A DNA stretch of 64,000 bases from Ceratothoa steindachneri (lineage: Eukaryota; Arthropoda; Malacostraca; Isopoda; Cymothoidae). Below are positions 24,130-62,010 of the stretch, one piece after another. The notes below the pieces were generated by a model that worked only from the letters and a program-made list of their open reading frames with translations, was not told the DNA's origin and did no database searches. Every line of letters begins with the position of its first letter. The stretch's first letter is position 1. Both the position numbers and the translations under genes were made by a program. The DNA is taken from the NCBI GenBank assembly GCA_963969495.1, contig OZ018321.1, forward strand, positions 106,254,066-106,318,065, in the 5' to 3' direction.

Positions 24130-26960
24130 TCAATACTTTAAGTTTCTAATAACTTTGTTTAATCTTTTTTTAAAAGTTTCTACAGTTTTGCTCGACACTA
24201 TTTCTTCCGTCAGCTGATTCCACACTTTAGCTATTCTATATAAAAAAAAAGTTTCCGCATAGGGTTGTTCTAAATGGTTTGGGAAAGGGCTCCAGGCCAT
24301 TGTTAGGAGTATAATTTCTATTTAGTTCAAACCAGATAGAGTGGTTGACATTTTCTATTCCTCTCAAACTTTCTATACCTGATTAATTGACCTCTAATGC
24401 GTCTTGTTTCCAGGCTGAATAGGTTTAACTTTTCCAGTCGCTTTTTGTAATTGTAATTTTTTTAAATTTGGAATTAATTTTGTCGCTCTGGCTTGGATGC
24501 TCCTCAATCTCTCAATCTCTTTTTTCAAATATGGCGACCAAACATGCCTACATTACTCCAATTGTGGTCTTACTAAGGCATTATACGTATTCAAGATTAT
24601 TGTTTCTTTTTTGTAGCTAAATTGTCTTTTAATATAACTAAGTATCTTTAAATTTTTTTCTCCACCTCTACACATTGCTGAGATAATTTGAGATCACTGG
24701 TTACGTAAATGCCTAGATCTTTTTTCTTTTCTGTGCATGTCATTGGTCTATCAAATATCTTATATTCAGCTTTGGGATTTTTATTACCTATATGCATTAT
24801 TTTTGCATTTATCTAGGTTCAAAGGCAAATCCCACTTTATCGACCAGCGCGAAATTTGATCAATATCTTCCCGAAAGTCTTTGATGTCATCTTCACTAAT
24901 TATACATTTACTCAATTTATACTAAAGCAAATTTTGAAATCTTTGATACCAATCCGATGCCAATATCGTTTACATATATAATGAAGAGTAATGGTCCAAA
25001 CACTGACTCCTGTGGAACTCCACTACTAACAGATGTCCAATCTGATGCTTGACCATTAATTACAACTATCTGCCTACGATTTGTGAGCCATTTCTCAATC
25101 CAATTTGAAACTTCTCCGATTATTCCTAATGTTCTAATTTTTGTCATTAACTTTCCGTGTGGTACACTATCAAAGGCCTTCTGAAAATCTAAATACAAAA
25201 TGTCAACTGACCTTTCTGTGTCATAAATTGAATTTATGTGGTGGAAGAATTCCAAGAGATTAGTCAGACACGATCTCTGTTTTCTGAAACCATGTTGAGA
25301 GTCACGTAATAATTCATTCGCTTCGATATGTTCAACTATTATTTCTGCTATAAAGGGCTCGAGCATTTTTCCCACCACCGATGTTAAGCTTATAGGGCGG
25401 TAATTGTTGGCTGACCTTTTGCATCCTTTCTTAAATATTGGAGTTATATTAGCCAATTTCCAATCTTCTGAGACACATCCTCTTTCGAGAGAAAGATTAA
25501 AAATTTGTGTTATATGTTCGGCTATGAAATCTTTAACTTCTTTTATGACCCTTGGGAAGATCATGTCCGAACCAGGCGATTTAAATCTATTCATTTTGTC
25601 GATGAGTCTCTTAACATCATTAACTGAACACTCTATTGATTTTAGAAGATTATTACCAGAATATATGTTGTTAGGTGTTAGAATAAAGTCGGAATCATCC
25701 TTGGTGAATACCGTTGCAAAGTATTCGTTTAAAACATTTGCTATTTTTACATCGTTGTATTGCAAAACAGTATTCTTGTCTTTGATGGGTCCTATACTAT
25801 TGTTTATTGGTTTCCTACTATTTACCAGTGCGAAGAATTCTTTGGGGTTCTGTCTTACAGTTTAAGGCCACTCTAATCTCTTCATTTTGCTTGGCTCTTT
25901 TAATTTCCCTTTTAACTTTTCTTTTCAGTTGGATATATTTTTCTTTGATGCTGCCCGAGTTTTTATTTTTAAGTAGCATATATGCTCTGTCTTTGTACCT
26001 AATACTTTTCTTAATTTCTTTTGTCAACCATTTTGGTTGTTTGACACTACCAACTTCCCATGATTTTGATGGAATGAAATGCGATTGCTTGTTCATCAGA
26101 TTTTCTTTAAAATTTATCCAGATTTCATTTATATGGCCAAAACTTAGTTTGTAATGACACAAGCTCTCTTTTAACCCCTCCATTTTAGCTCTTTTAAAAT
26201 CTAGCTTAGTAATGCTTAATTTTCTTTTGATGCATGGTACGTTAACATTAAAATAGATTACATTGTGGTCACTATTACCAAACATATTTCCTACGCTCAG
26301 ATTTGAAATCAAATCATCGTCGCTAGTAAAAACTATATCTAAGATATTAAGACCTCTTGTGGCTTCGTTCACCCACTGGGTTAGTAAGTTATCGTCAATA
26401 AAATTAATTAATCTGTATCCTTCCGCGTCAGAGGTTTTTGTAGACCAGTCTACTCGTCCACAGTTGAAATCGCCAATAATTAAAAAATAATTTGTTGTTA
26501 ATCTCATTTGTGAAACAGTCGTAGAATCTTTGATCTAAATCCATTGTTTGATGAGGGCTTCTGTATGTTAAATATATATACAGACTTCTTTCAAGATTTA
26601 ACTTGACTCCTATAAGTTCGAAGTCGGAGCATACATTGCAGTCTGTTGGATAAAGAGTATTTCGTTAATATAAAATCACTTCTCCACCCTCCGTTCCTAC
26701 TCTCTCTTTATGGAACACTTTAAAACCTTCTAATTGAAATTCACCACTGAAATCTCTTGAGTGACAATGAATCCAGCTCTCTGTACTGCCTATTATATCA
26801 TATGTTTCTACTGCTACAAATGCTTTAAGCTCTGCTAATTTATTCCTAATAGACCTGGCATTTAATTTAGCAGCTTTTAAATATTTCACCTGTTTACTTG
26901 TGCTTCCGGGGTTGAACCGTTTCCCGAGGTCGTAAGTGAAGTATTATCAGAGGGATTCTT
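24130..26960 (-). pseudogene. B1 ORF2: APE endonuclease and reverse transcriptase, broken
   Basis: The endonuclease is readable at 26960-25818: KLNARSIRNKLAELKAF, YDIIGSTESWIH, LIIGDFNCGRVDW and FGNSDHNVIYF. The RT follows at 25765-24917: [64 protein letters not shown] and SGVPQ. The catalytic FADD box has become FALV followed by a stop at about 24920, so polymerase activity is lost. The C-terminal part continues in broken frames to about 24130. The N-terminus overlaps ORF1 in the -1 frame, with GGGAAAC at 26919-26925. Confidence 0.85.
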
Positions 26961-32469: not shown

Positions 32470-35250
32470 TTTTTCAAATATAATTTGTCAAGTCTACTCT
32501 CTAACTGCTCGACACTTCTACTCTCAACAACTCCCGCTGGTAGTTTATTCCATGTGTTGCAAATGTCAGATGTGAATGACTTACCCACCGGAATAGTATT
32601 AAATCTGGGCAGGTCCACCTTCCATACGTGATTTCGAGTCATATTCCGGTTGAGGGTAAAGAACTTGGTGGAGTCAACATTTTCAAATCCTTTCAAGATT
32701 TTAAAAGTCTCTATTAGACGACCGCGCAGTCTTCGAGTCTCTAACGAATAGAGATCGAGCTCTTGCAGTCTTTCTTGGTATGACTTGTTCCTTAGCGATG
32801 GGATCAGTATTGTGGCCCTGGCTTGCACCTTTTCCAGACGATCAATGTCTTTTCGATGATGAGGAGACCAGAACTGAACAGCGTACTTTAGGTGAGGCCT
32901 CACCAGCGAGTTGTTCAAAGGCAAAACAACCTCTTTTGTTCAAAAGCTGAATTGCCTCTTGATGTAACCCAAAAGGCGATGAGACTTTTTCTCCACCTGT
33001 AAGCACTGCTTTGAGAATTTTAGATCGCTGCTAATTAGTCCTTCTCGACATCAGTAGACTCAAGACGCATACCTTGCAGCTCGTAGCCTGACCGGGGGTT
33101 CGCATACCCGATGTGCATCACCTTACACTTGTCTAAGTCGAAAGGCATCTGCCACTTGTCAGCCCACTCGCCGATCATCCGTAGGTCATCTCTCAACATC
33201 TCGATGTTTTCGGGATTCGCTACGTTAGCTCCAAGTTTTGTGTTGTCGGCAAATTTCGCTAGACGACTCACCAGTCCTTCATCTATATCGTTGATGTAGA
33301 TGATGAATAATAGAGGGCCTAGCACGGAACCCTAAGGGACTCCGCTCGTTATTGACGACCACCGAGAGGTATGGCCTCCGATGGTAACCCTCTGCACCTG
33401 TCCGATAATTAACTTTCTAACCATTTTTTGACCTTTCCTCTTATTCCCAGGGCACGTACTTTCGCGATCAGTCGGCGGTGGGGGACTTTATCAAAAGTCT
33501 TCGGAAATCCAAATAAAGTATGTCCACCGCTCGACTTCTGTCAAACTCACTTATTATCCCGTGGAAGAATTCAAGCAAGTTCGTGAGGCACGAGCGCTTT
33601 CTTCGAAAGCCATGCTGTGTGTCTCTCAACAGGTCGTGAGACTCTAAATTATTCATTATCCCATCCCCTATGATGCCTTCTAGTACTTTGCCCACGATTG
33701 AAGTGAGACTTATTGGTCGGTAGTTTCCTGCGGTGCCACGGTCCCCCTTTTTTGGGATTGGGGTGACATTAGCCATACGCCAGTCTGCAGGTACTTCGCC
33801 ACTGTCGAGCGATGAGTTGAAGATCTCAGAAAGATGAGGGCTCACCTGATCTTTCACCTCACGCAGCACTGTTCGCAGGAAGCCGTCAGGACCTGGAGAT
33901 TTATACGCATTTAACTGATCTAGCCTCCTAGCAACCTCTTCGGAAGTTGTAGTTATTGCTTCTAGCGATTCTAACTCACGATCTATCACTATCGGCGGTC
34001 TGGGTATCTCTCCGCCCCTTTCCCTCGTGAAAACCGAGGAGAAGTAGTCGTTAAGTATGCCAGCTATTTCCTCATATGAATCATGGAGAACGCCGTCCGC
34101 GTCCCTCAGGGGACCGATGCGTTGGCGTACTTGTTTTCGGCTGTTCATGTACGCGAAGAACTCCTTGGGGCTCTTTTTGGAGAGAGAGGCTACACAAATT
34201 TCTTCGTTACGCTTAGCCGTGCGCACTAGTACCTTAACCGTTCTACTATGGGTCACATAGGCTTCATGGTGCAACACACTACTATTCCTCTTCCATGCTC
34301 TGTGCGCTGTCTTTCTAGCTCTAATAGCACTAGCGATTTCTTGAGAAAACGACCTAGGCTGAATGCTCGCTAGTCTGACAGCCTTCGTGGGAACGCTCTC
34401 GGCCTGACGCTCCATAAAACGATTCTTGAAGTTGTTCCATTTGGAATTTGTCCCGCCTTCGTTAGTTGGTTGCATCTGGCCAAGTGCCCCCCGAAGCCCA
34501 TCGAAGTCTGCACGTCTGAAATCCAATATACGTGCTCGTTCATTAGTACCTCGAGTACAAGGAGCACTTACTCCAAACCTTACCATGTTATGGTCACTAC
34601 CACCTAGGTATTCATCCACTGACAGGTCAGAGTCGAGGTCATCTTCAGTGATAAATACTAGATCTAGAACGTTGCCTCCTCGGGTAGGCTCGCCAACCAA
34701 CTGAGTCAGAAAGTTGCTGTCAGCAAAGTCTACAAGCCAGAATGCCTCTGCGTCGACCGTTCGGTCACACCAGTCGACTCGGCAATTGAAGTCCCCTAGC
34801 AGCACCGAGGGAGGGCCGTCTAAGACACTGGACAGTTTTTGGTACAGGTCTATATCAACCTCTATCATCCGATTAGGATGTCGATAGGCCACTATGAACC
34901 TGTACATTGTATTGTCGATATTGATGTCCACTCCTACCACCCCATGTTTTGGGACAGTTCTGCATTCGATGGGAGATAGATGGACCCGTACATACACCAG
35001 AACTCCACCCCCTTCACGGTCAGCGCGATCCTTATGGAAGGTCGCGTAACTGGGTACTCCAAACTCACCTATGAAGTCCCTGGTGTCTGCACGAATCCAC
35101 GCCTCCGTGACGGCCACTATGTCAAGCTTCTCTGATGTCATTAGTGCTCTAAGCTCACAGAACTTGTTCCTTAGTGAGCGGACATTTAATAGAAGAACTC
35201 TTAGGGGGCGTCCGCTAGCCTTACTGCCCCCTCCACTTCTCCGTTTTCCG
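32470..35250 (-). pseudogene. C1 ORF2: APE endonuclease and reverse transcriptase, broken
   Basis: The longest endonuclease-RT frame of the window, 35141-33468, has ordered motifs: [84 protein letters not shown] and DILYLDF. A frameshift follows at about 33500, just after RT motif A. The catalytic box is FADNTKLG (about 33250): the second Asp of FADD is Asn. The C-terminal region (32924-32466) is open. The N-terminus extends upstream in the -1 frame of ORF1 (GKRRSGGG). One or two frameshifts plus the active-site change make it inactive. Confidence 0.86.
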
Positions 35251-36989: not shown

Positions 36990-37739
36990 GAACCCTGCAA
37001 AGTCTGCTCTTCTCAAATCCAGTTTCCTCGATTTGCTAGTTGCAAGCCCTGCCTTCGGGACTTTGACTACAAATCTAATTAGTCGGTAGTTACTGCCAGC
37101 GAGCTCTTCGCCAACATAGAGGTCCTCAACATATCATCCTCAGAGGTGAAAACCAAGTCGATGATATTTTCTCCTCTAGTTTGTTCTCTCACCCATTGAG
37201 TAAGGAACTCGTTGCTCGCGAACTCTAGGAGTAGTGCGTTCTCGCCACAGGATTCTCTGGTTTCCCAGTCAACTTGTGTGTTGAAATCACCTATGACGAT
37301 ACACACTCTGTCTTCGACAAGTTCTCCTAGCAGCTGGTACAGATCTCTGTCCTTTTCAATGAGTTGGGCAGGAGGTCTATAAAGCACCAGGGTCCTGTAT
37401 TTGGCAGGACCGATCTAGTTCAACTCCTAGTAGTTCATGGTCGGATACGATGTTTCAATCCGTCGAGTTTAGAGTATCCTTGACATACAACATCACACCG
37501 CCACCCTCTCTGTCAGGCCTATCTTTCAGGAGGAACTGGTAACCAGTAATCGAGAATTCACATTCAAAATCTCGGCTTGAGGTTTTTATCCACGACTCCC
37601 TTATGGCCATCATCTCAGGTTCTTCTGTTGTTACAAGGCCACGAAGTTCAAAAATCTTTTTTCTAGTAGACCTCGCATTAAACAGAACAACTTTGAAGGA
37701 GTCCCCGACTGTAAGACTCCCTACGCTCTTCTGTTTCCC
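36990..37739 (-). pseudogene. A3 ORF2, endonuclease N-terminal part
   Basis: Minus-strand frames give LYRPPAQLIEKDRDLYQLL, CIVIGDFNTQVDWETRE, FLTQWVREQTRGENIIDLVF and EPEMMAIRESWI-like text. These are APE endonuclease motifs (GDFN, catalytic Asp-Asn) shared with A5 (50469-51374). Several frameshifts; the SDH block is degraded (AVTTD). Confidence 0.78.
37696..37739 (-). promoter_or_regulatory. candidate -1 frameshift signal, copy A3
   Basis: The slippery heptamer GGGAAAC (37733-37739 on the minus strand, in ORF1 phase G GGA AAC) is followed after 9 nt by an imperfect version of the family hairpin (37696-37723). Confidence 0.65.
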
Positions 37740-40629: not shown

Positions 40630-43370
40630 TCTTAAAGTATCAACAGTTTTACTAGATATTACTTCTCGTGGTAGCTTATTCCATATGTTGACAATTTTGT
40701 ATGAAAAAAATTTCCAGTTTGATTTGTTCTATACTGCAATGGTACCAGCTTCATTCGGTTGTTCCTTCTCTCACAGTCATTTAACTTAAATCATATCTCA
40801 GCTTCTACATTTTCTATCTTATTTAATATCTTAAACGTTTTATGAGTTGGCCTCGCATTCGCCGCGTTTCCAGTCTGAAGAGATTTAGTCTTTCTAATCT
40901 AGTTTCATAGTTGTGTTTTCTTAACGATGGTATTAGTTTTGTTGCTGTTTCTTGAACTTTCTCAAGCCTTTAGATATCCTTCCTCAAATTTGGGGACTAG
41001 AATTGTACACAATATTCCAGATGTGGGCGAACTAATTCATTATATTAATTCAGTACTATGGTTTCGTTTCTGCATTTAAATTGTCGTTTGATGTATCCTA
41101 GGATCCTGGAAGCTTTTTTTTCATTTCTATACATTGCAGACTAAACTTAAGATTATTCGATATATATACTCCTAAATCTTTCTCGACTTTTGTTTCTGTT
41201 AATTCCGAGCCGAACAATGTATATACAGCTTGTGGATTTCTGCTTCCAATATGCATTACTTTACTCTTGCCTAGGTTTATTGGCAGTTTCCATTCTCTTG
41301 GCCATTCTTCTATACAATCAATATCTCTCTGAAGTTCTTCTGCTTCTTCTTTATTACATAACCCTTTTCCAATTTTGGCGTCATCTGCAAATTTAACAAT
41401 TTTTGACATGAGACCTATGTCCAAATCATTGATATAAATTATGAATAGTAGGGGGCCCAACACAGAACCCTGAGGTACCCCACTTGACACTTTTGTCCAT
41501 TCAGAGGCAGATCCATTGATTACTACTCTGTGATATCTATTTGTAAGCCAATCTTCAATCCAGTCTCCTACGTTTCCTTTGATTTCGAATGCCATAAGTT
41601 TTGCCATCAGTAATTTATGGGGGACTTTGTCGAACGCTTTCGATCGACTTCTCATCATCATATTGCTCGAATACATATTAGAAGAAGTTTAACAAATTCG
41701 TTAGGCAAGATTTATTTCTTCTGAATCCATGTTGGGAATCTCTAAGAAGCTCTTTTGATTCAAGATGTAATATAATTTTCTTGGAGATGAATGATTTTAA
41801 AAGTTTTCCAATCACTGACGTCAAACTGATCGGTTGATAGTTTTTCACTAGTTCTCTGCAACAATTTTTAAAAATTGGCGTTACATTTGCATATTTCCAG
41901 TCATTGGGAACAACTCCACTGCCTAATGATTGAGTAAAAATGTGTGCTAAATGTTTGCTAACAACCTCTTTCACTTCTTTCAGAACTCTGGGATAAAACA
42001 TATCCGGTCCAGGTGATTTGTTGGCATTCATTTTATTTATCAAATTTATAACATCTTCGGCGGTACAGCTAGCATTTTCTAATGAGTCATTGCCTGTATA
42101 TACAATATTTAGCTCAGGTATATGAGAGGTTTCTTCATTAGTAAAAACAGTTAGGAAATAATTATTCAGTACACAAGCTATATCATAGTTATTGAATTTT
42201 AAAATACCATCAATATTTCTCAGTGGTCCAATATTGTTCTTTATAGGCTTCCTATTGTTCACAAGAGCATAAAATTCCTTTGGATTCACTTTACAATTTT
42301 GTACTACTCTAATCTCTTCTTCTCTTTTGGCTTTTTTAATTTCTCTTTTTATTTATCGCCTTAGGATATCGTATTGTGCTGTTAACTGTTGGGACGGCTT
42401 GATTTTTAGCATTTTATACGTTCTTTTCCTATCTCTTATCATGCTTTTTATTTCCTTGCTTAACCACGTCAAATCTTGATTAATAAGTGAATTTTTAGTT
42501 TTGAAGGGGACATATTCTGTTTGTTGTTTCATAAAAAATCCTTAAAAGATATCCATGCATTGTTTGGTCCTTCATTATTTGTAACATATCCTGCTAGGTT
42601 TGCTCTCATGGCTTCATAATTTCCACTGCTAAAGTGGGTCTGTGTATATTTTTCATTATTTTCCATGTCGATATTTGGATATCGAACTCTATTAAATTGT
42701 GATCACTACCTTCGAATTTTTCGCAGACGTAAATATTTGAGAGTAAGTTGCTTTTAGTAGACAATATAAGGTTTAGTATATTGTTACCTCTTGTTGTTTT
42801 ACTGACCCACTGAGTTAAGAAATTATCCTTAATAAAATCCAGAAGTCTCTGCCATTCTTTATCCTCTTGTTTTTTTATCCCAGAACTAACGCAAGCTTCT
42901 TATCTATTTGTTTTGTCAGTACATCATAGAGTATTACACAAGATCCGGTGACTGGTGCGGTTTTCTGTATATTAGATAAATGCATATATTTATTTTATCT
43001 AAATTAGCTTCACTCCTATCATTTCTAGGGTCGTATCCAAGGTAATTTCTGTTGGGTAAAGATATTCGGGTATATATAATAACACTTCCACCCGAATTTG
43101 ATCTTTTCTATCTTTATTGAACATTTTGTAGTTTTTTAACTCAAATTCACCTCTAAAATCTCTGGAGTTCAAATTTATCCATAATTCTGTAATTGCAATT
43201 ATGTCATACTTCTCTATAGTTACCATAGCTCTGAATTCGAACAATTTGTTTCTGATCAAACGTGTATTTAGAAGAATCACTCTCATGGGTTTGTTGCACT
43301 TCCTGGAGGAGATTCGTTTCCCGAAACGGGGGTCTCCACAATGACTGGGGTTGTTGTGGTTTTGCAAATA
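40630..43370 (-). pseudogene. B2 ORF2: APE endonuclease and reverse transcriptase, broken
   Basis: The N-terminus (43367-42999) reads FGKRISSRKC, MRVILLNTRLIRNKLFEF, YDIIAITELWIN and DFRGEFELKNYKMF. The middle endonuclease (43000-42300) is heavily frameshifted. RT (42289-41678) has MNANKSPGPDMFYPRVLKEV, NYQPISLTSVIGKL and QHGFRRNKSCLTNLL. It continues at 41676-41098 with [25 protein letters not shown] and an intact FADDAKIG catalytic box. C-terminal pieces reach about 40630. Frameshifts at about 41677 and 42300 inactivate it. Confidence 0.84.
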
Positions 43371-45015: not shown

Positions 45016-45030
45016 AGAGAGAGAGAGAGA

Positions 45031-45076
<46 letters not shown>
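45016..45076. repeat. (GA)n separator between B2 and A4
   Basis: GA run with GAAGG and GAAA interruptions. Confidence 0.95.
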
Positions 45077-45077
<1 letters not shown>

Positions 45078-45175: not shown

Positions 45176-47975
45176 TCAATTGTTTTGCGTCCCTAAACGG
45201 CCACTTTTCAAGCCTTTGTCTAGTCTTGACTTGAACTGGTCAACAGATTCACTGTTGACAACTTCCACTGGAAGTGCGTTCCACTTACCGCAGATACTGT
45301 AGGTGAAAAAATTTCCACACAGATTGCGGTTGTAACGCTTCAGTTCAAGTTTGAAGCCGTGATTGCGCGTTATGTTCTCACTCAGTGTGAAAATATTTGG
45401 GTAGTCAACATTGTCGAACCCTCGAAGTATTTTGAAAACTTCGATGAGCTGACCACGAAGTCTACGGGTTTCCAGCGAGAACAGATCTAATTCCCTTAGT
45501 CTATCCTCATAAATTTTATGTCGGATAGAGGGAATCAGTTTGGTTGCCCTAGCTTGTACGCGTTCCAACCTTGCGATGTCCTTTCAAAACGAAGGACTCC
45601 AAAATTGTACGGCATACTCCAGGTGCGGCCGAACGAGGGAGTTGTACAGACAAAGTACTATCGCCTTGTTACGCTATCCAAACTAGCTGGCGCTTTATGT
45701 AGCCTAACATCCTTTGGGCTTTCTTCTCTGCCTCGATGCACTGTTTCGAGAACTTGAGGTCGCTCGTGATAGTTACACCAAAGTCCTTCTCACTGTCACT
45801 CGATTCGAGAGCAGTGTCCTTAAGGATATAATGAGATTGGGGGTTTCTGCGGCCGATATGCATCACTTTGCATTTCCCCACGTTAAAAGGCATTTGCCAC
45901 GTGTCCAACCACTCCCCAATCTTCCCAAGATCTTACTGCAGGTGGGCAGTATTTCCATCCTTTGCAACGTTCATACCAAGCTTGGTATCGTCGGCAAATT
46001 TGGAAATCTTGGCAACCATGTCACCGTCCATGTCGTTGAAGTAGATGATGAATAGTAGTGGTCCCTGGACAGAACCTTGAGGCACCCCGCTAGTAACGGG
46101 CACCAATTCAGAAGCCTGTCCATTTACCACCACCCGTTGCCATCGGCCACTTAGCCAGTTCTCGATGCAGCCGGCTACTTTTCCGTTTATTCCCATGACT
46201 CGCACTTTCCGGAGAAGGTGGCGGTGTGGTACCTTATCAAAGGCTTTTTGAAAGTCTAAGTACACCACATACACCGCCTTGTCCCGATCGTGCTCACTGA
46301 ACACGAAGTGGAAGAATTCCACAAGGTTCGTCAGGCATGACCGTTGCCTTCGGAAGCCGTGCTGGGAACTCCTCAGTAGCAGGTTTGACTCTAAATACGA
46401 CGTTATTTTCTCCACCATGATGCTTTCCATGAGTTTACCGACTATCGAAGTCAGACTGATAGGTCGGTAGTTTGACGGATGGCTGGGGTCTCCTTTCTTG
46501 AAGATCAGAGTCACTTCCACCTCACGCCAGTCTCTAGGAACGCATCCGGTCCGGATTGACATGTTAAAGATAGCGCACAGATGTCGTGATACTTCATCGC
46601 ACACTTCCTTCAACACCTTGGATAGAAACCCGTCCGGTCCAGGGGATTTATTCGTCTTTAGGTCAGCGATCTTTTTCTTTATTTAACATTCGGTGAAGTC
46701 CATTGCCTCCAGCTTTTCCCCCGAGTAGGAATCCATAGGCTAGGGGATGGGACCACACTCTTCAGTAAACACTGAAGAGAAGTAGTCGTTGAGGAGGTTA
46801 GCATTTTCTGCATCTGACTGAGTTAATGCACCCTCCTCGTCCACTAAGGGCCCAATCCTACGATGGATTGGTTTACGGGTATTTACATAGGCGAAGAACT
46901 CCTTGGGATTCTCCTTGCAGAGTCTCGCCACTCGGAGTTCCTCAGACAGCTTAGCCGCCCTTATGCTGGACTTCACTCTCCTGGCTAGCCTCCGGTACTC
47001 GTCAAAGGCTCCGAGATCTTCGATCGCCGGTACGCATTTCTCTTCTCCCTAAGCAGTTGGCCGATTTCTCGATTAAACCACTTTGGTTGAACAGAAGACC
47101 GACGAGGGCATTTCAGAGGGATGCAACTTGATTGAAGACTCATGAACTTATTTTTGAAATTGTTCCACGAATCCTCAACCTCTTCGCATACCGCTAGCCT
47201 TACATCAGTCAGCCCTGCACGAAGGCTTGCAAAGTCTGCTCTTCTCAATTCAAGTTTCCTTGATTGACTAGCAACAGACCTTACCTTCGGGATCTTGACG
47301 GTAAATCTAACTAGCTGGTGATCACTGCCACCGAGCTCTTCGCCTACAGCGACATCTTCAACGATATCATCCTCAGAGGTGAAGACCAAGTCGAGGATAT
47401 TGTCTCCTCTCGTCGGTTCTCTGACCCATTGAGTGAGGAACTCGTTGTTGGCGAACTCCAGGAGTAGCGCGCTCTCGCCAACAGGATTCTCTGGTTTCCC
47501 AGTCAACTTGTCTGTTGAAGTCGCCCATAACGATGCACACTCTGCCTTGAACAAGCTCATTCAGCAGCTGGTACAGTTCCCTGTCCTTTTCAACGGGGTG
47601 GGAAGGGGGTCTGTAAAGCACCAGGGTCCTGTATCTGACAGGACCTATCTCTAGGTCAACGCCTAGGAGCTCATGATCGGATATAATTTTGGAGTTCGTA
47701 GATTTGATTGTATCCTTGACATACAACATTACACCGCCACCCTCTCTGTCTGGCCTATCTTTGTGGAAGAGTTGGTAGCCAGGAACCGTGAATTCGCCTT
47801 CAAAGTCTCGGTTTGACGTTTTTATCCACGATTCTGTTATGGCTACCATTTCGGGTTCTTCCGTCGCTACGAGGCCACGGAGCTCAGGAAAGTTGTTCCA
47901 GATTGACCTCGCATTGAACAGAAGAACTTTCAGGGAGTCCCCGACTGTAGGACTCCCTACGCTCTTCCGTTTCCC
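45176..47975 (-). pseudogene. A4 ORF2: APE endonuclease and reverse transcriptase, broken
   Basis: Endonuclease motifs (47849-46985): MVAITESWIKTSNRDF, DREGGGVMLYV, CIVMGDFNRQVDW and LGGSDHQLVRF. RT (46976-45669): NPKEFFAYVNTRKP, a stop in the EGEIKKK segment near 46684, [44 protein letters not shown] and [11 protein letters not shown]. The tail (45568-45176) has MERVQARATKLIPSIRH and SVDQFKSRLDKGLKSG. Frameshifts at about 47500, 46980, 45930 and 45660 separate the frames. Confidence 0.87.
47931..47975 (-). promoter_or_regulatory. candidate -1 frameshift signal, copy A4
   Basis: GGGAAAC (47969-47975, minus strand), a 9-nt spacer, then a hairpin with 9 bp perfect plus one G-U pair (47931-47959). 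The ORF1 stop TAG lies at the hairpin base. Confidence 0.72.
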
Positions 47976-49307: not shown

Positions 49308-50204
49308 TTTCTCTCTTTCAAAACTTTGTGACCAATCAATAGAAAAAAGGGGGTTGGTGAGTTCTCCCAGCGTGAGTCGCTCCCGCCTATCGATCGGAGA
49401 CGTTTCGGATCTTTCAGAAGGTACGCTCCATGTGCTGCTGTTCGTCCGACCGAGTCGTCAAGTCTCGGCGTGCCGTGGCTCCCAACCAAGCAGCACAGAC
49501 AGTCCCCGAAGGGGCCATCGATTTGTCACCAGGTGAACAACAACGAAGCACGCCCCTTACTAAACTCCTACTAGTTCCCTTCACAACGGCCAGGATCTCG
49601 GAGCAGCGTTCAATGGATATCCCGCCCCACCAAGAGACTCGACCCAAGGCTTTTTATTGGCCTGGCAACCAACCTGGGAACAAAAGGCCGTCACCTCGGA
49701 CCAAGGCTACCATAAGCATCCGTCAACGGGCACTGGGAACGGTCAATAATTACGCGCCAGGGAAGGGGTTACCGGGGCACTACCCTCATCCCATTCATCG
49801 TGCCCCAACGCCTAGGACACCTCTAGTCCTAGTCTCTCGCAACCAGTGAGCGTCGATTGGCGTTGTTTATAGAGGTTCCAAAGCCTCTCTTCTGACGCAT
49901 GAGGGAGCTGCCAGGTCCTTATATGTAGATAGAGAAAGAAAAGGGAAAGAGGGACATGAAAGGAGTAGTTTTTTTTTGTTTTTTTTCTTTTTGTATAAGT
50001 GGGAGAGATAGAATAAAAGTAAAAAAGGAGAAGGATAGAGTAAAAAAAAGGAAGGAATGACGCTCTTAGTCTGGAATCTCGTTTTAGACCAAATCGACAA
50101 GGTAAGCCCTACCAGGGGTACCCAGAAGAGGTACCCCCGCCGGCATAGCTCGAAAAGTCAAAGGTACACACAAGCTCTCTTCCCGCGACAAGGGGGCGTC
50201 ACCT
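49308..50204 (-). promoter_or_regulatory. 5' UTR with probable internal promoter of A4
   Basis: Collinear with the A3 and A6 5' UTRs; includes the TATA-like block at 49917-49928 and CCAAT at about 49660. Confidence 0.6.
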
Positions 50205-50205
50205 G

Positions 50206-50424
50206 TACAAAAGGGACGGAGTACATCTTTCCTTTAAAGGGAAAGCTGCACTCGCAAACATGATCCAGGATGTTGTGGAGCGGACCCAAAGAAGTGTCAG
50301 ACCCCGAGTAAAGGAGGACGTACGCCAGTACACCCGTGTTACTCCAGGAACGACCTTTTCTGAAGTCACAAAGAGTGGAGTGATCCCGCCACAGAGAAAG
50401 AAAGCGGGAAACGGAAGAGCGTAG
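50206..50424 (+). pseudogene. A5 ORF1, C-terminal remnant
   Basis: In frame it reads DGVHLSFKGK-like residues, then NMIQDVVERTQRSVRPRVKE, DVRQYTRVTPGTTFSEVTKS and ...GNGRA, ending at TAG 50422-50424. The N-terminal two thirds are missing through 5' truncation. Confidence 0.8.
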
Positions 50425-50450
50425 GGAGTCCTACAGTCGGGGACTCCCTA
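50406..50450 (+). promoter_or_regulatory. candidate -1 frameshift signal, copy A5 (clearest example)
   Basis: GGGAAAC at 50406-50412 in ORF1 phase (G GGA AAC), spacer 50413-50421 (9 nt), stem TAGGGAGTCC (50422-50431), loop 50432-50440, perfect complement GGACTCCCTA (50441-50450). ORF1 stops at 50422; the -1 frame is open into ORF2. Confidence 0.75.
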
Positions 50451-53201
50451 AAAGTTCTTCTGTTTAATGTGAGGTCTATCAGAAACAAGTTTCTAGAGCT
50501 TCGTGGCCACGTAGCAACAGAAGAACCGGAGATGCTGGCCATAACGGAGTCGTGGATAAAAACCTCAAGCCGAGATTTTGAAGGTGAATTCACGATTCCC
50601 GGTTACCAGCTCTTCTTGAAAGATAGGCCAGACAGAGAGGGTGGCGGTGTGATGTTGTATGTCAAGGATACTCTCAACTCGACGGATTGCAACATCGTAT
50701 CCGACCATGAACTACTAGGTGTTGACCTAGAGATAGGTCCTGCCAAATACAGGACCCTGGTGCTTTATAGACCTCCTGCCCAACTCGTTGAAAAGGACAG
50801 AGATCTGTACCAGCTACTAGGAGAACTTGTCGAAGACAGAATGTGTATCGTCATGGGTGATTTCAACACACAAGTTGACTGGGAAACCAGAGAACCCTGT
50901 GGCGAGAACGCACTACTCCTGGAGTTCACGAACAACGAGTTCCTCACTCAATGGGTGAGAGAGCCAACGAGAGGAGACAATATCCTCGACTTGGTTTTCA
51001 CCTCTGAGGATGACATCGTTGAGGACCTCTCTGTTGGCGAAGAGCTCGGTGGCAGTGACCACCGACTAATTAGATTTGTAGTCAAAGTCCCCAAGGCAGA
51101 GCCTGCAACTATTAAATCAAGGAAACTGGATTTAAGAAGAGCAGACTTTGCAGGTCTACGCGCGGGACTGACTGACGCGAGGCTAGAAGAGTGCGAGGCT
51201 GTTGAAGACTCTTGGAACAGTTTCAAAACCACATTCATGAGTCTTCAATCGCGTTTTATCCCTCTGAAATGCCCCCGTCGGTCTTCTGTTCAACCAAAGT
51301 GGTTTAATCGAGAAATCGGGCAACTGCTGAAGGGAGAAGAGAAATGTGTACCGGCAATCGAAGATCTCGGGTGACTTTGACGAATACCGGAGGCTAGCCA
51401 GGAGAGTGAAGTCCAGCATAAGGGCGGCTAAGCTGTCTGAGGAACTCCGAGTGGCGAGACTCTGTAAAGAGAATCCCAAGGAGTTTTTTGGATATGTGAA
51501 CAGCCGTAAACCAATCCGTCGAACGATTGGCCCTTTGAGGAATGAGGAGGGGACATTAAAGCATTCAGATGCAGAAAATGCTAACCTCCTCAACGACTAC
51601 TTCTCTTCAGTGTTTACTGAAGAGTGTGGTCCCATTCCCCAGCCGACGGATTCCTACTCGGGAGAAAAGCTGGAGGCAATGGACTTCACCGAAGGAGAAA
51701 TAAAGAAAAAGATCGCTGCCCTAAAGACGAATAAGTCCCCTGGACCGGACGGGTTGCTACCTAAAGTGTTGAAGGAAGTGTGCGATGAAGTATCACGACA
51801 TCTGTGCGCTATCTTTAACATGTCAATCCGGACCAAATGCGTTCCTAGAGACTGGCGTGAGGCGGAGGTGACTCCTATCTTCAAGAAAGAAGACCGTAAC
51901 CAACCGTCGAACTACCGACCTATCAGTCTGACTTCGATAGTCGGTAAACTCATGGAAAGCATGATGGTGGACAAAGTGACGTCGTATTTAGAGTCAAACC
52001 TGCTACTGGGGAGTTCCCAGCACGGCTTTCGAAGGCAACTGTCATGCCTGACGAACCTTGTAGAATTCTTCCACTTCGTTTTCAGTGAGCACGATCGGGA
52101 CAAGGCGGTGGATGTGGACTACCTAGACTTTTAGAAAGCCTTTGATAAGGTACCACACCGCCGCCTTCTCCGGAAAGTGAGAGCGCTTGGCATAAACGGA
52201 AAGGTAGCCGGCTGGATCGAGAACTGACTAAGTGGCAGATGACAACGGGTGGTGGTAAATGACAGTCTTCTGAGTGGGTGCCCGTTACTAGCGGGGTGCC
52301 TCAAGGTTCTGTCCTGGGACCACTACTATTCATCATCTACGTCAACGACATGGACGGTGAAATGGTTGCCAAGATTTCCAAATTTGCCGACGATACCAAG
52401 CTTGGTATGAACGTTGCAAAGGATGGAAATACTGCCCACCTGCAGGCAGATCTTGGGAAGATTGGGAAGTGGTCGGACACGTGGCAAATGCCTTTTAACG
52501 TGTGCAAATGCAAAGTGAAGCATATCGGCCACAGAAACCACCAATCTCAGTATATCCTTAAGGGCACTGCTCTTGAATCGAGTGACACTGAGAAGGACTT
52601 GGGTGTTACTATCACTAGTGCCCTTAAGTTCTCGAAACAGTGCATTAAGGCGGAGAAAAAGGCCCAAAGGATGCTAGGCTATATTAAGCGCCAGTTTGGT
52701 TATCGGAACCAGGAGATTGTACTGTTCCTGTACAACTCACTTGTCCGACCGCACCTGGAGTATGCCGTACAATTTTGGAGTCCTTCATTGCGAAAGGACA
52801 TCACGAGATTGGAACGCGTACAAGCCAGGGCAACCAAGCTGATTCCCTCTATCCGACATAAAAGTTATAAGGATAGACTAAGGGAATTAGATCTGTTCTC
52901 GCTGGAAACCCGTAGACAGCGTGGTCAGCTCATCGAAGTTTTCAAAATACTTCGAGGGTTCGACAATGCTGACTACCAGGATATTTTCACACTGAGTGAG
53001 AACAGAACGCGCAATCACGGCTTCAAACTTGAACTGAAGCGTTACAACCGCAACCTGTGTGGACATTTTTTCACTTACAGTATCTGCGGTATGTGGAACG
53101 CACTACCAGTGGAAGTTGTCAACAATGAATCTGTTGACCAGTTCAAGTCAAGACTAGACAAAGTCTTGAAAAGTGGCCGTTTAGGGACGCAAAACAATTG
53201 A
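50407..53201 (+). pseudogene. A5 ORF2: APE endonuclease and reverse transcriptase, broken
   Basis: The -1 frame opens upstream of the ORF1 stop (GKRKSVGSPTVGDSLKVLLF) with no nearby ATG. The endonuclease (50469-51374) is complete: MLAITESWIKTSSRDFEG, GGGVMLYVKD, CIVMGDFNTQVDW and LGGSDHRLIRFVVKVPK. RT follows after a frameshift near 51345: [34 protein letters not shown] and YLDF, then TAG at 52132. The 52278-53201 frame has [25 protein letters not shown] and the C-terminal tail to FKSRLDKVLKSGRLGTQNN. About 930 codons originally; at least three inactivating lesions. Confidence 0.88.
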
Positions 53202-53311: not shown

Positions 53312-53527
<216 letters not shown>

Positions 53528-53637: not shown

Positions 53638-56431
53638 TCAATTGTTTTGCGTCTCTAAACGGCCACTTTTCAAGACTTTGTCTAGTCTTGACTTGAACTG
53701 GTCAACAGATTCACTGTTGACAACTTCCACTGGAAGTGCGTTCCACATACCGCAGATACTGTAAGTGAAAAAATTTCCACACAGATTGCGGTGGTAACGC
53801 TTCAGTTCAAGTTTGAAGCCGTGATTGCGCGTTCTGTTCTCACTCAGTGAGAAAATATCCCAGTAGTCAACATTGTCGAACCCTCGAAGTATTTTGAAAA
53901 CTTCGATGAGCTGACCACGCTGTCTACGGGTTTCCAGCGATAACAGATCTAATTCCCTTAGTCTATCCTCATAACTTTTATATCGGATAGAGGGAATCAG
54001 CTTGGTTGCCCTGGCTTGTACGCGTTCCAATCTCGCGATGTCCTTCCGCAATGAAGGACTCCAAAATTGTACGGCATACTCCAGGTGCGGTCGGACAAGT
54101 GAGTTGTACAGGCACAGTACAATCTCCTGGTTCCGATAACCAAACTGGCGTTTAATATAGCCTAGCATCCTTTGGGCCTTTTTCTCCGCCTCAATGCACT
54201 GTTTGGAGAACTTGAGGTCACTAGTGATAGTAACACCCAAGTCCTTCTCAGTGTTGGTGGATTCAATAGCAGTGCCCTTAAGGATATACTGAGATTGAGG
54301 GTTTCTGTGGTTGATATGCATCACTTTGCATTTGCCCACGTTAAAAGGCATTTGCCACGTGTACGACCACTCCCCAATCTTCCCAAGATCTTCCTGCAGG
54401 GTGCAGTATTTCCATCCTTTGCAACGTTCATACCAAGCTTGGTATCATCGGCAAATTTGGAAATCTTGGCAACCATGTCACCGTCCATGTCGTTGACGTA
54501 AATGATGAATAGTAGTGGTCCCAGGACAGAACCTTGAGGCACCCCGCTAGTAACGGGCACCCACTCGGAAGACTGTCCATTTACCACCACCCGTTGCCGT
54601 CTGCCACTTAGCCAGTTCTCGATCCAGCCGGCTACCTTTCCGTCTATGCCAAGCGCTCGCACTTTCCGGAGAAGGCGGCGGTGTGGTACCTTATCAAAGA
54701 CTTTCTGAAAGTCTAGGTAGACCACATCCACCGCCTTGTCCCGATCGTGCTCACTGAAAACGAAGTGGAAGAATTCTACAAGGTTCGTCAGGCATGACCG
54801 TTGCCATCGGAAGCCGTGCTGGGAACTCCTCAGTAGCAGGTTTAACTCTAAATACGACGTCACTTTGTCCACCATGATGCTTTCCATGAGTTTACCGACT
54901 ATCGAAGTGAGACTGATAGGTCGGTAGTTCGACGGTTGGTTACGGTCTCCTTTCTTGAAGATAGGAATCACCTCCGCCTCACGCCAGTCTCTAGGAACGC
55001 ATTTGGTCCGGATTGACATGTTAAAGATAGCGCACAGATGTCGTGATACTTCATCGCACACTTCCTTCAACACTTTAGGTAGAAACCCGTCCGGTCCAGG
55101 GGACTTATTCGTCTTTAGGTCAGCGATCTTTTTCTTTATTTCTCCTTCGGTGAAGTCCATTGCCTCAAGCTTTTCCCCCGAGTAGAAATCCGTCGGCTGG
55201 GGAATGGGACCACACTCTTCAGTAAACACTGAAGAGAAGTAGTCGTTTAGGAGGTTGGCATTTTCTGCATCTGAATGCTTTAATGTCCCCTCCTCATTCC
55301 TCAAAGGGCCAATCGTTCGACGGATTGGTTTACGGATGTTCACATATCCAAAAAACTCCTTGGGATTCTCTTTACAGAGTCTCGCCACTCGGAGTTCCTC
55401 AGACCGCTTAGCCGCCCTTATGCTGGACTTCACTCTCCTGGCTAGCCTCCGGTATTCGTCAAAGTCACCCGAGATCTTCGATTGCCGGTACACATTTCTC
55501 TTCTCCCCAAGCAGTTGCCCGATTTCTCGATTAAACCACTTTGGTTAAACAGAAGACCGACGAGGGCATTTCAGAGGGATAAAACGCGATTGAAGACTCA
55601 TGAATGTGGTTTTGAAACTGTTCCAAGAGTATTCAACAGCATCGCACTCCTCTAGCCTCGCGTCAGTCAGTCCCGCGCGTAGACCTGCAAAGTCTGCTCT
55701 TCTCAAATCCAGTTTCCTTGATTTACTAGTTGCAGGCTCTGCCTTGGGGACTTTGACTACAAATCTAATTAGTCGGTGGTCACTGCCACCGAGCTCTTCG
55801 CCAACAGAGAGGTTCTCAAGGATGTCATCCTCAGAGGTGAAAACCAAGTCGAGGATATTGTCTCCTCTCGTTGGCTCTCTCACCCATTTGTGAGGAACTC
55901 GTTGTTCGTGAACTCCAGGAGTAGTGCGTTCTCGCCACAGGGTTCTCTGGTTTCCCAGTCAACTTGTGTGTTGAAATCACCCATGACGATACACACTCTG
56001 TCTTCGACAAGTTATCCTAGTAGCTGGTACAGATCTCTGTCCTTTTCAACGAGTTGGGCAGAAGGTCTATAAAGCACCAGGGTCCTGTATTTGGCAGGAC
56101 CTATCTCTAGGTCAACACCTAGTAGTTCATGGTCGGATACGATGTTGCAATCCGTCGAGTTGAGAGTATCCTTGACATACAACATCACACCGCCACCCTC
56201 TCTGTCTGGCCTATCTCTCAAGAAGAGCTGGTAACCGGAAATCGTGAATTCCACTTCAAAATCTCGGCTTGAGGTTTTTATTCACGACTCCGTTATGGCT
56301 ACCATCTCCGGTTCTTCTGTTGCTACGAGGCCACGAAGTTCTAGAAACTTGTTTTTGATAGACCTCGCATTAAACAGAAGAACTTTTAGGGAGTCCCCGA
56401 CTTTAGGACTCCCTAGGCTCTTCCGTTTCCC
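53638..56431 (-). pseudogene. A6 ORF2: APE endonuclease and reverse transcriptase, few lesions
   Basis: The N-terminal endonuclease frame has a stop near 56280 (GTYPWI-equivalent region) and breaks near 56012 and 55883 (around GDFNTQVDW). The second endonuclease half (55883-55545) is intact, with LGGSDHRLIRFVVKVPK, and has a stop at 55545. RT (55493-54321) is continuous for 390 codons: [85 protein letters not shown] and [11 protein letters not shown]. After one frameshift near 54350 the tail (54351-53638) is complete. Not functional as it stands. Confidence 0.88.
56387..56431 (-). promoter_or_regulatory. candidate -1 frameshift signal, copy A6
   Basis: GGGAAAC (56425-56431, minus strand), 9-nt spacer, perfect 10-bp hairpin (56387-56415) whose 5' arm contains the ORF1 stop TAG. 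Confidence 0.75.
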
Positions 56432-57645
56432 GCTTTCTTTCTGTGTGGCGGGATCACTCCACTCTTTGTGACTTCAGAAAAGGTCGTTCCTGGAGTAACA
56501 CGGGTGTACTGGCGTACGTCCTCCTTTACTTGGGGTCTGACACTTCTTTGGGTCCGCTCCACAACATCCTGGATCATGTTTGCGAGTGCAGCTTTCCCTT
56601 TAAAGGAAAGATGCACTCCGTCCCTTTTGTACAGGTCATTTCTCCCGTAAAAAGTGCGGTAGGGGTCTACAAAAAAGACTCCTTCCGCCGTACAAAGATC
56701 TCCCAGGCGTTGGTTAATGGAGACGTTCCTCGCGTGAGCATTGCGGGATGGACCTCGTTTTGGGAGTATCCCGACCACGACACGTCTGCGGGTTTTTAGC
56801 CCACAGTCGTCAACTCCTCCCATAACCGTGGTTAGGATCTTCCCGCTGGCGCCTACATTGCCTCCTCGTAGGTAGAGATAGTTGCCACTTGCCATGAGGG
56901 CAACTACTGAGTTCTCAGAGATGTGAGATTTCTCAGCCTCCACCCTTATTTCTCCGTTCCCCTTTCCTGGAAGGCAGCTTACCTTCACACTGGTGCGAAG
57001 GCGGGCCGCTAGCAAGGGTTGTAGATCCCGCGCTTGGGAGTCACCGATCACGATGACCCTCGCGCATTTGGCTTCAGATGACAGAGGCTTCCCTTTCAGT
57101 ATGGGCTCTTTCTTCCCCACTTTTTGGGGGTTTTTCTTCTTTGTCTTCTTCGTTTTTTCTCCCGTTTCTACTTTCTCTTCTGTTTTTCCTTTCTTACTCT
57201 TCCTTTTCTTCTTTTTGACGCCCTGAGTAACTCCAGCAGCTGCTGGCTCTAGGACGTCGGATGGTTGGCCTATCTCTATCGACGCGGTGCATGAGGGCCC
57301 GACAGAGGAGCCATCCGCGTCGTTGGGAGTTTCTTGTTGCTGTTGCTGTCCATTGGTGGCTTTAATCTCTGAAATGATGGCTTCGAGATGACGGATTTGA
57401 GTCACATGCTCAGACTCGAGGATTTTCACCTTTTCTTCCAGCCGTCGTGTTTTTTCCTCAGAAGATTTAAAAAGTTCCTTAAGCTCCAGAAGTTCTGCCC
57501 TAAGGACGCAGTCCGTGCAGATACTTCCAGGGTGGCATTTTGAGAAACACCCCTCCGGAAAATCTACGCACCACTTGTCCTTTTGGCATGTCGAGCAGGT
57601 ATACTTTAACGCACCAGGTCCTTTCTTTCCAGTCATGCTGAACAC
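56413..57645 (-). CDS. A6 ORF1 protein: PHD-like finger, coiled coil, basic linker and SGNH esterase (410 aa, uninterrupted)
   Basis: The start is Met 57645 (MFSMTGKKGPG; Met-4 is also possible). Residues 16-46 form the finger (CSTCQKDKWCVDF, CFSKCHPGSICTDC). Residues about 50-95 are a Leu/Glu/Lys coiled coil. Residues about 140-185 are a Lys-rich linker. The SGNH esterase begins near 197 with VIVIGDSQARDLQPLL (nucleophile Ser in GDS), then ASGNYLYLRGG, VVVGILPKRG and DGVHLSFKGK (Asp/His dyad) near 345. The GND box of relatives is GNY here, so hydrolase activity may be impaired. The PHD plus esterase combination is established for CR1-like ORF1. It ends at TAG 56413-56415 inside the hairpin, with ORF2 following in the -1 frame. 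Confidence 0.88.
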   Translation of the reverse strand: MFSMTGKKGPGALKYTCSTCQKDKWCVDFPEGCFSKCHPGSICTDCVLRAELLELKELFKSSEEKTRRLEEKVKILESEHVTQIRHLEAIISEIKATNGQQQQQETPNDADGSSVGPSCTASIEIGQPSDVLEPAAAGVTQGVKKKKRKSKKGKTEEKVETGEKTKKTKKKNPQKVGKKEPILKGKPLSSEAKCARVIVIGDSQARDLQPLLAARLRTSVKVSCLPGKGNGEIRVEAEKSHISENSVVALMASGNYLYLRGGNVGASGKILTTVMGGVDDCGLKTRRRVVVGILPKRGPSRNAHARNVSINQRLGDLCTAEGVFFVDPYRTFYGRNDLYKRDGVHLSFKGKAALANMIQDVVERTQRSVRPQVKEDVRQYTRVTPGTTFSEVTKSGVIPPHRKKAGNGRA

Positions 57646-58575: not shown

Positions 58576-58582
58576 AAGGAGA

Positions 58583-58661
<79 letters not shown>
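58576..58661. repeat. (GA)n separator between A6 and A7
   Basis: GA run of about 85 bp. Confidence 0.97.
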
Positions 58662-61763: not shown

Positions 61764-61946
<183 letters not shown>

Positions 61947-62010
61947 GTTACAAGGAGTTACAAGGAAAGATAGTACCTCAGAAGACTAAGTTAGTCCATA
62001 CCAAGGAGGT
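61947..62010 (-). mobile_element. minimal 64-bp LINE insertion B4 (3' terminal units plus hairpin only)
   Basis: Nearly identical to the first 60 bp of B3: two GTTACAAGGA units and the hairpin up to 'ccaaggaggt'. It is cut off directly after the hairpin, with (GA)n on both sides. Confidence 0.8.

Follow-up and report, generated by a model that had tools for sequence, protein, structure and literature searches.

Judged from its sequence, the junction between the two open reading frames (ORFs) of a LINE family in the isopod Ceratothoa steindachneri is very probably (about nine chances in ten) a -1 programmed ribosomal frameshift signal that would give an ORF1-ORF2 fusion. An earlier note on this DNA had proposed -1 frameshifting at this site, and three lines of evidence now support it: the slippery heptamer GGGAAAC is present in 58 of 58 copies with an open ORF2, it is conserved across five families, and the corresponding motif closes 28 of 29 complete ORF1 relatives from other assemblies. 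The window, by which we mean the whole stretch of 64,000 nt that was analyzed, belongs to an assembly of 3.93 Gb in 529 contigs. It contains members of family A (with subfamilies comprising a 985-codon class, a 941-codon class and L047) and of families B, C and D; family E consists of L029 and its relatives. The features of the junction and of its sibling copies in the window are as follows.

50406..50412, + strand: slippery heptamer G GGA AAC in ORF1 phase, family A; invariant across five families
50413..50421, + strand: spacer, 9 nt
50422..50424, + strand: ORF1 stop codon TAG, at the stem base
50422..50431, + strand: 5′ arm of the stem; compensatory changes relative to family E
50441..50450, + strand: 3′ arm of the stem; compensatory changes relative to family E
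50203..50421, + strand: ORF1 remnant, residues 338-410 of 410, 100% identical to the ORF1 of L009
50406..53198, + strand: ORF2, with endonuclease and reverse transcriptase, in the -1 frame; interrupted here, giving the pieces 50406-51332, 51319-52299 and 52263-53198
50532..50534, + strand: earliest ATG in the ORF2 frame, at codon 43 counted from the heptamer and beyond the FNVRSIRNK motif
47931..47975, - strand: copy A4, with heptamer, spacer, stop and stem
37696..37739, - strand: copy A3, with heptamer, spacer, stop and an imperfect stem
56387..56431, - strand: copy A6, with heptamer, spacer, stop and stem; ORF1 open upstream (56416-57636), ORF2 broken
35243..35249, - strand: family B copy, GGAAAAC at the place of the heptamer; stem intact, ORF1 stop 3′ of the stem
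26919..26925, - strand: family C copy, GGGAAAC in ORF1 phase; stem not convincing
43316..43322, - strand: family D copy, GGGAAAC in ORF1 phase; ORF1 stop TGA overlaps an in-frame ATG; stem not convincing

The layout at 50406-50450 is the one that the earlier note had read there: GGGAAAC in ORF1 phase, a 9-nt spacer, the ORF1 stop at the base of a 10-bp stem, and ORF2 in the -1 frame. Its companion observations also held, with the same heptamer and spacing in A3, A4 and A6, an imperfect stem in A3, and no ATG near the start of ORF2. Within the window the combination of heptamer, spacer and TAG was counted 4 times, where 0.29 would be expected, and at least 4 occurrences were obtained in 0 of 100 shuffles. 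The family A copy at 50406 is itself a dead element. We predict that ribosomes translating ORF1 would arrive at G GGA AAC, where the Gly and Asn tRNAs would re-pair with GGG and AAA as the ribosome meets the downstream stem. A minority of ribosomes would then continue in the -1 frame to give a fusion of ORF1 (finger, esterase) with ORF2 (endonuclease, reverse transcriptase), and the others would stop at the ORF1 stop codon, giving a ratio like that of Gag to Gag-Pol. ORF2 is open in the -1 frame across the heptamer in the intact copies and in the loci read. Two further routes were considered and rejected: readthrough of the ORF1 stop continues in the ORF1 frame, not the ORF2 frame, and a +1 shift leads into the third frame, which is closed by stops.

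Retention of the heptamer was assessed among other copies in the assembly. Twenty copies were fetched among the 40 best-scored matches to a query that itself contained the heptamer, so this set is uninformative on retention; among them, L009 and L010 have both ORFs intact (an ORF1 of 410 aa from Met and an ORF2 of 945 codons), and L013, L018 and L028 have a full ORF2 only. In the intact elements the ORF2 frame is open from 14 codons 5′ of the heptamer. The retention set was therefore taken from protein searches, which are independent of the junction, and was chosen on the ORF2 frame alone (a listed open frame of at least 900 codons with no listed stop). It comprises 58 distinct copies, part of a longer list of matches: 15 from the first protein search (L031, L036, L037, L039, L040, L041, L044, L045, L046, L048, L049, L050, L053, L057 and L058), 18 from the 20 loci L091-L110 (L091 is the L057 element and L092 the L036 element), 10 from L111-L120, 12 from family B (L059-L062, L064 and L121-L127), and L069, L078 and L087. 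L077, with no recognisable junction, and L090, with no endonuclease start, were left out of all counts. The earlier note had held that loss of the heptamer from copies with intact ORFs would speak against frameshifting; GGGAAAC is kept in all 58 of these ORF2-open copies, a number that overstates their independence, as they include many young copies of few lineages. An intact heptamer is missing from nine copies (L029, L030, L033, L081, L083, L084, L085, L133 and the window copy of family B). The listed open frames of L029, L030 and L033 are 300, 407 and 415, the ORF of the window B copy is 557 aa, and the ORF2 frame of L133, which reads GGGAAAA at the place of the heptamer, is interrupted by a stop within the slice; these five are the frames that were looked at, and an open ORF2 was shown in none of the nine. 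Because nine copies are without an intact heptamer, the site is not a mutational cold spot.

The heptamer was also compared with its flanks across families, as the earlier note had suggested. The amino acid identity of ORF2 to family A is 49% for family B (residues 1-583), 43% for family C (1-146) and 32% for family D (4-228). In an ungapped alignment of one copy per family, anchored on the heptamer, mean pairwise identity across the five families is 1.0 for the heptamer, 0.225 for positions -27 to -4 and 0.303 for positions +7 to +39, so that the flanks agree at about chance level. Single flanking columns are conserved, including the base immediately 5′ of the heptamer, and fully conserved seven-base windows clear of the heptamer are absent. 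Unlike the window copy of family B, the family B loci L059-L076 keep GGGAAAC. The view that family E lacks the heptamer, taken from L029 alone, was rejected, as L079, L080 and L082 carry it and L029, L081 and L083 do not.

Protein evidence from other assemblies extends this pattern. Two protein searches with ORF1, in the second of which scoring was limited to the top 7999 candidates, found 31 distinct relatives, of which 29 are complete (P0039 and P0065, whose C-termini are missing, were left out). All but one of these end in xGNxxx-stop; the exception, P0049, has the C-terminus SRNGLC. Gly is preceded by S (22), Q (2), T (2), P or A, all of them residues with a G-ending codon. The relatives free of the exception make up 15 of 16 clusters at 70% identity and 4 of 5 at 60%, and there is a single cluster at 50%; no residue at positions -30 to -7 is common to more than three of five cluster representatives. 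Such conservation could in principle come from the peptides, if Ser-Gly-Asn in ORF1 and Gly-Lys-Arg in the ORF2 frame jointly forced TCGGGAAACG and the slippery appearance were a by-product. The same bases would be fixed if both peptides were constrained together; several families carry SGN and GKR, and database relatives repeatedly have SGNG at the end of ORF1. We nevertheless regard this explanation as extremely improbable: neighboring residues are not similarly conserved, the distance to the ORF1 stop varies among families, and in the loci read the ORF2-frame peptide lies 5′ of any AUG, so that its own translation would need a frameshift or a non-AUG start. Since the ORF2-frame Gly-Lys is not decoded in tandem slippage, and its decoding needs upstream entry where there is no AUG, selection on the slippery site is the simplest account.

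How ORF2 might otherwise be entered was judged from the positions of its Met codons. An ORF2 start 5′ of the heptamer was rejected, as the 6-55 open ORF2-frame codons there lack Met in 17 of 17 loci. Downstream, counting from the heptamer, 15 of 15 A-type loci have their first ORF2-frame Met at codon 43, beyond FNARSIRNK, and L087 (family C) has it at codon 30, where the endonuclease motif has already begun; in L059 (family B) none was found in the 31 codons covered after the heptamer. Because the first Met lies past the start of the endonuclease motif, a complete endonuclease in families A and C requires either frameshifting or initiation at a codon other than AUG. If ORF2 were initiated internally or otherwise without an AUG, and without dependence on ORF1 translation, this would fit the lack of a usable AUG in A and C, and unconventional initiation has been proposed for L1 ORF2 in passages of PMC2881922 and PMC5009743. 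Such initiation would leave unexplained the phase of the heptamer, its distance to the stem and stop, and the -1 frame relation, and we consider it very unlikely.

A different possibility is termination-reinitiation, in which a ribosome ending ORF1 would restart on ORF2 at an overlapping AUG or near-cognate codon, aided by the stem as in SART1. In families A and E the base of the stem is indeed where the ORF1 stop lies, and the structure that SART1 needs is likewise downstream of its stop-start site (as described in part of PMC5972666). In family D, 5 of 7 copies (the window copy, L129, L130, L131 and L133) have ATGA at the junction, at the start of ORF2. Database relatives of ORF2 (P0002-P0005 and P0007-P0009) have a Met start shortly 5′ of the endonuclease, and these starts may be real; P0009 opens with MIGSPAVGDS at the place of the in-frame VGSPTVGDS of family A, and P0002 opens with MGSL, so that a start codon may be present at this point in relatives. 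For P0002, P0003 and P0009, known from proteins alone, the Met may be either real or the choice of a gene caller. Against reinitiation, an AUG overlapping the ORF1 stop is absent from the A, B, C and E loci read, which are without an AUG near the junction, and a slippery heptamer in ORF1 phase is not something that this route requires. Moreover, GGGAAAC is kept in 6 of 7 family D copies, including L132 and L134, which are closely alike at the junction and have lost the AUG (ATAA) yet keep the heptamer. Family B is informative in the same sense: its ORF1 stop lies 3′ of the 3′ arm of the stem, whereas in A and E the stop is at the 5′ arm, and the heptamer did not move along with the stop. Here the heptamer, its spacing and a stem of other sequence were kept while the stop moved behind the stem. 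Taken together, we rate reinitiation as unlikely for the lineage, and family D may use both routes, now or formerly. In one family B copy, L127 (G000:C39:3063980-3064220), the ORF1 stop TAA behind the stem reads TCA; the heptamer and stem are kept, and an ORF2 of 901 codons is listed.

The earlier note had included the stem in the cassette, and this stands for families A and E, where compensatory changes were found, and is likely for B; in C and D no convincing stem was seen. Over the 45 nt after the heptamer (1000 shuffles each), folding gave z-scores of -4.6 for family A, -4.1 for the 985 class, -2.0 for the 941 class, -2.4 for L047, -2.35 for family E and -1.3 (p 0.105), a weak value, for family B; the values for C (+0.6) and for two D copies (-1.0 and -0.1) point to no convincing stem, and no structure was found in C and D within 95 nt after the heptamer. 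Other slices gave -5.5 for A and -1.9 for B, and longer slices of the A subfamilies were weak (985 class, -1.15; 941 class, -0.99). Covariation was scored in 15 A and E junctions, 13 of them distinct. In this set 95.2% of cells are paired, versus 37-68% with one arm slid, and between A and E, 2 of 8 pairs are changed on both sides (G-C to A-U and U-A to C-G), each of which may be a single event. The covariation score, the cells paired and the cells changed on both sides all lie above 500 of 500 shuffles; two of the five measures do not exceed the shuffles, namely the number of pairs with changes on both sides (442 of 500) and that of additional pair types (500 of 500). All 9 stem pairs are formed in 5 of 5 copies of the first fetched set (that of L009 and L010), in 14 of 15 copies of the first protein search (8 of 9 in the remaining copy) and in 30 of 30 of L091-L120, two of which are duplicates. 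The family B stem, AGGGGGC/GCCCCCT, differs in sequence from the A/E stem and forms 7 of 7 pairs in 12 of 12 copies, under a search pattern that required most of the 3′ arm; L128 has a short ORF2. A candidate stimulatory structure downstream of the heptamer is thus present in A and E, likely in B, and was not found in C and D. At 50413-50463 of the window, the spacer can pair with GTTCTTCT behind the stem to form a longer family A hairpin, and B is similar. L087 of family C has a possible 8-bp stem, CAACGCGG/CTGTGTTG, 5 nt after the heptamer with a 32-nt loop, which is absent in the window C copy.

The domains place these elements among LINEs with an esterase (type IV) ORF1, having SGNH/GDSL in ORF1 and an APE-like endonuclease and reverse transcriptase in ORF2, the latter two above cut-off. 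ORF1 consists of a cysteine-rich finger, seen by eye, followed by a GDSL/SGNH esterase. Lipase_GDSL_2 was matched by 18 of 18 ORF1 members at E <= 0.01, with the ORF1 of family A itself scoring 18.5 bits, under the curated cut-off of 32.9 bits; the ORF1 of family D matched OSK above cut-off. No match to ORF1 was found among PDB sequences, and no relatives were found in IMG/VR and GTDB contigs. One named endonuclease match, at 59% across 64% of the query, belongs to a crab, Scylla paramamosain. Three ORF2 matches lie inside far longer open frames (G000:C1:75756293, G000:C8:123401912 and G000:C9:135278113, of 3208, 2932 and 2542 codons). In the window, long (AG)n/(GA)n microsatellites (45016-45077, 53312-53527, 58579-58661 and 61764-61947) stand within about 100-200 nt of the ORF2 3′ ends of several minus-strand family A copies, as if they were an element tail.

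The kind of signal is well known; the comparisons that follow draw on individual passages of the cited papers. With mammalian ribosomes, G_GGA_AAC ranks with the heptamers most prone to shifting (PMC5009743), and GGGAAAC is the shift site of PEG10, MPMV, SRV-1, FIV and others (PMC2800197, PMC3835772). The retroviral gag-pro and gag-pol signals (MPMV, SRV-1, FIV) and PEG10 share with the present junction GGGAAAC in 0-frame phase, a short spacer, a downstream RNA structure and a structural ORF followed by a -1 polymerase ORF (PMC3835772, PMC2800197). In the table rows consulted, their stimulators are pseudoknots with spacers of 4-7 nt (5 nt in PEG10), whereas here a simple hairpin stands 9-10 nt away; the stem moreover has another sequence in B and is not convincing in C and D, and the signal sits in a LINE rather than in an LTR element. 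Among LINEs, SART1 of Bombyx also has a downstream RNA structure at its ORF1/ORF2 junction (PMC5972666), but with an overlapping stop-start site, for which families A, B, C and E lack the AUG. Mammalian L1 likewise expresses its second ORF unconventionally and tied to ORF1 (PMC2881922), but its ORFs are 63 nt apart (PMC5972666), whereas those of the present elements overlap, with ORF2 in the -1 frame. HeT-A and TART of Drosophila are non-LTR elements for which recoding has been discussed (PMC5009743); HeT-A differs in that it has no reverse transcriptase of its own and needs the frameshift for gag (PMC5009743), and TART in that the following ORF lies in the +1 frame and has its own start codon, preceded by a 37-nt spacer. 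CR1 and L2 elements with an esterase (type IV) ORF1, such as ZfL2-1, have the same GDSL/SGNH esterase-like ORF1 (PMC3905857, PMC4120745), and in a term search the word frameshift was absent from the main text of both papers. The routes to LINE ORF2 described so far are reinitiation or ORF1 dependence, stop-start coupling and unconventional initiation (PMC2881922, PMC5972666, PMC5009743); in addition, 2A-type StopGo is described in trypanosome and sea-urchin elements (PMC5972666), and in Zorro3 the ATG is needed (PMC1965478). We found no -1 signal at a LINE ORF1/ORF2 junction in the passages of open-licence literature that were searched, and an earlier mention elsewhere is possible; its use at this position thus appears to be new.

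We infer slippage itself, its rate and the fusion as the working form of ORF2 from sequence features of this kind. On this basis we think it probable that an ancient esterase-ORF1 LINE lineage, with at least five families here and ORF1 relatives elsewhere, would make its reverse transcriptase only as a -1 fusion to the ORF1 protein, in the manner of Gag-Pol. The reverse transcriptase would then carry the esterase and finger in cis, slippage would set the ratio of ORF1 protein to reverse transcriptase, the stem would have been rebuilt around a fixed heptamer (A/E versus B), and in some families a strong stem may be dispensable for shifting. The ORF1 C-terminal xGNxxx-stop offers a cheap signature for finding such elements in transcriptomes. 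If true, a conserved -1 signal in a LINE lineage would add a further route to the ORF2 protein, LTR and non-LTR elements would have converged on the same heptamer, and a fusion of esterase, endonuclease and reverse transcriptase would be predicted.
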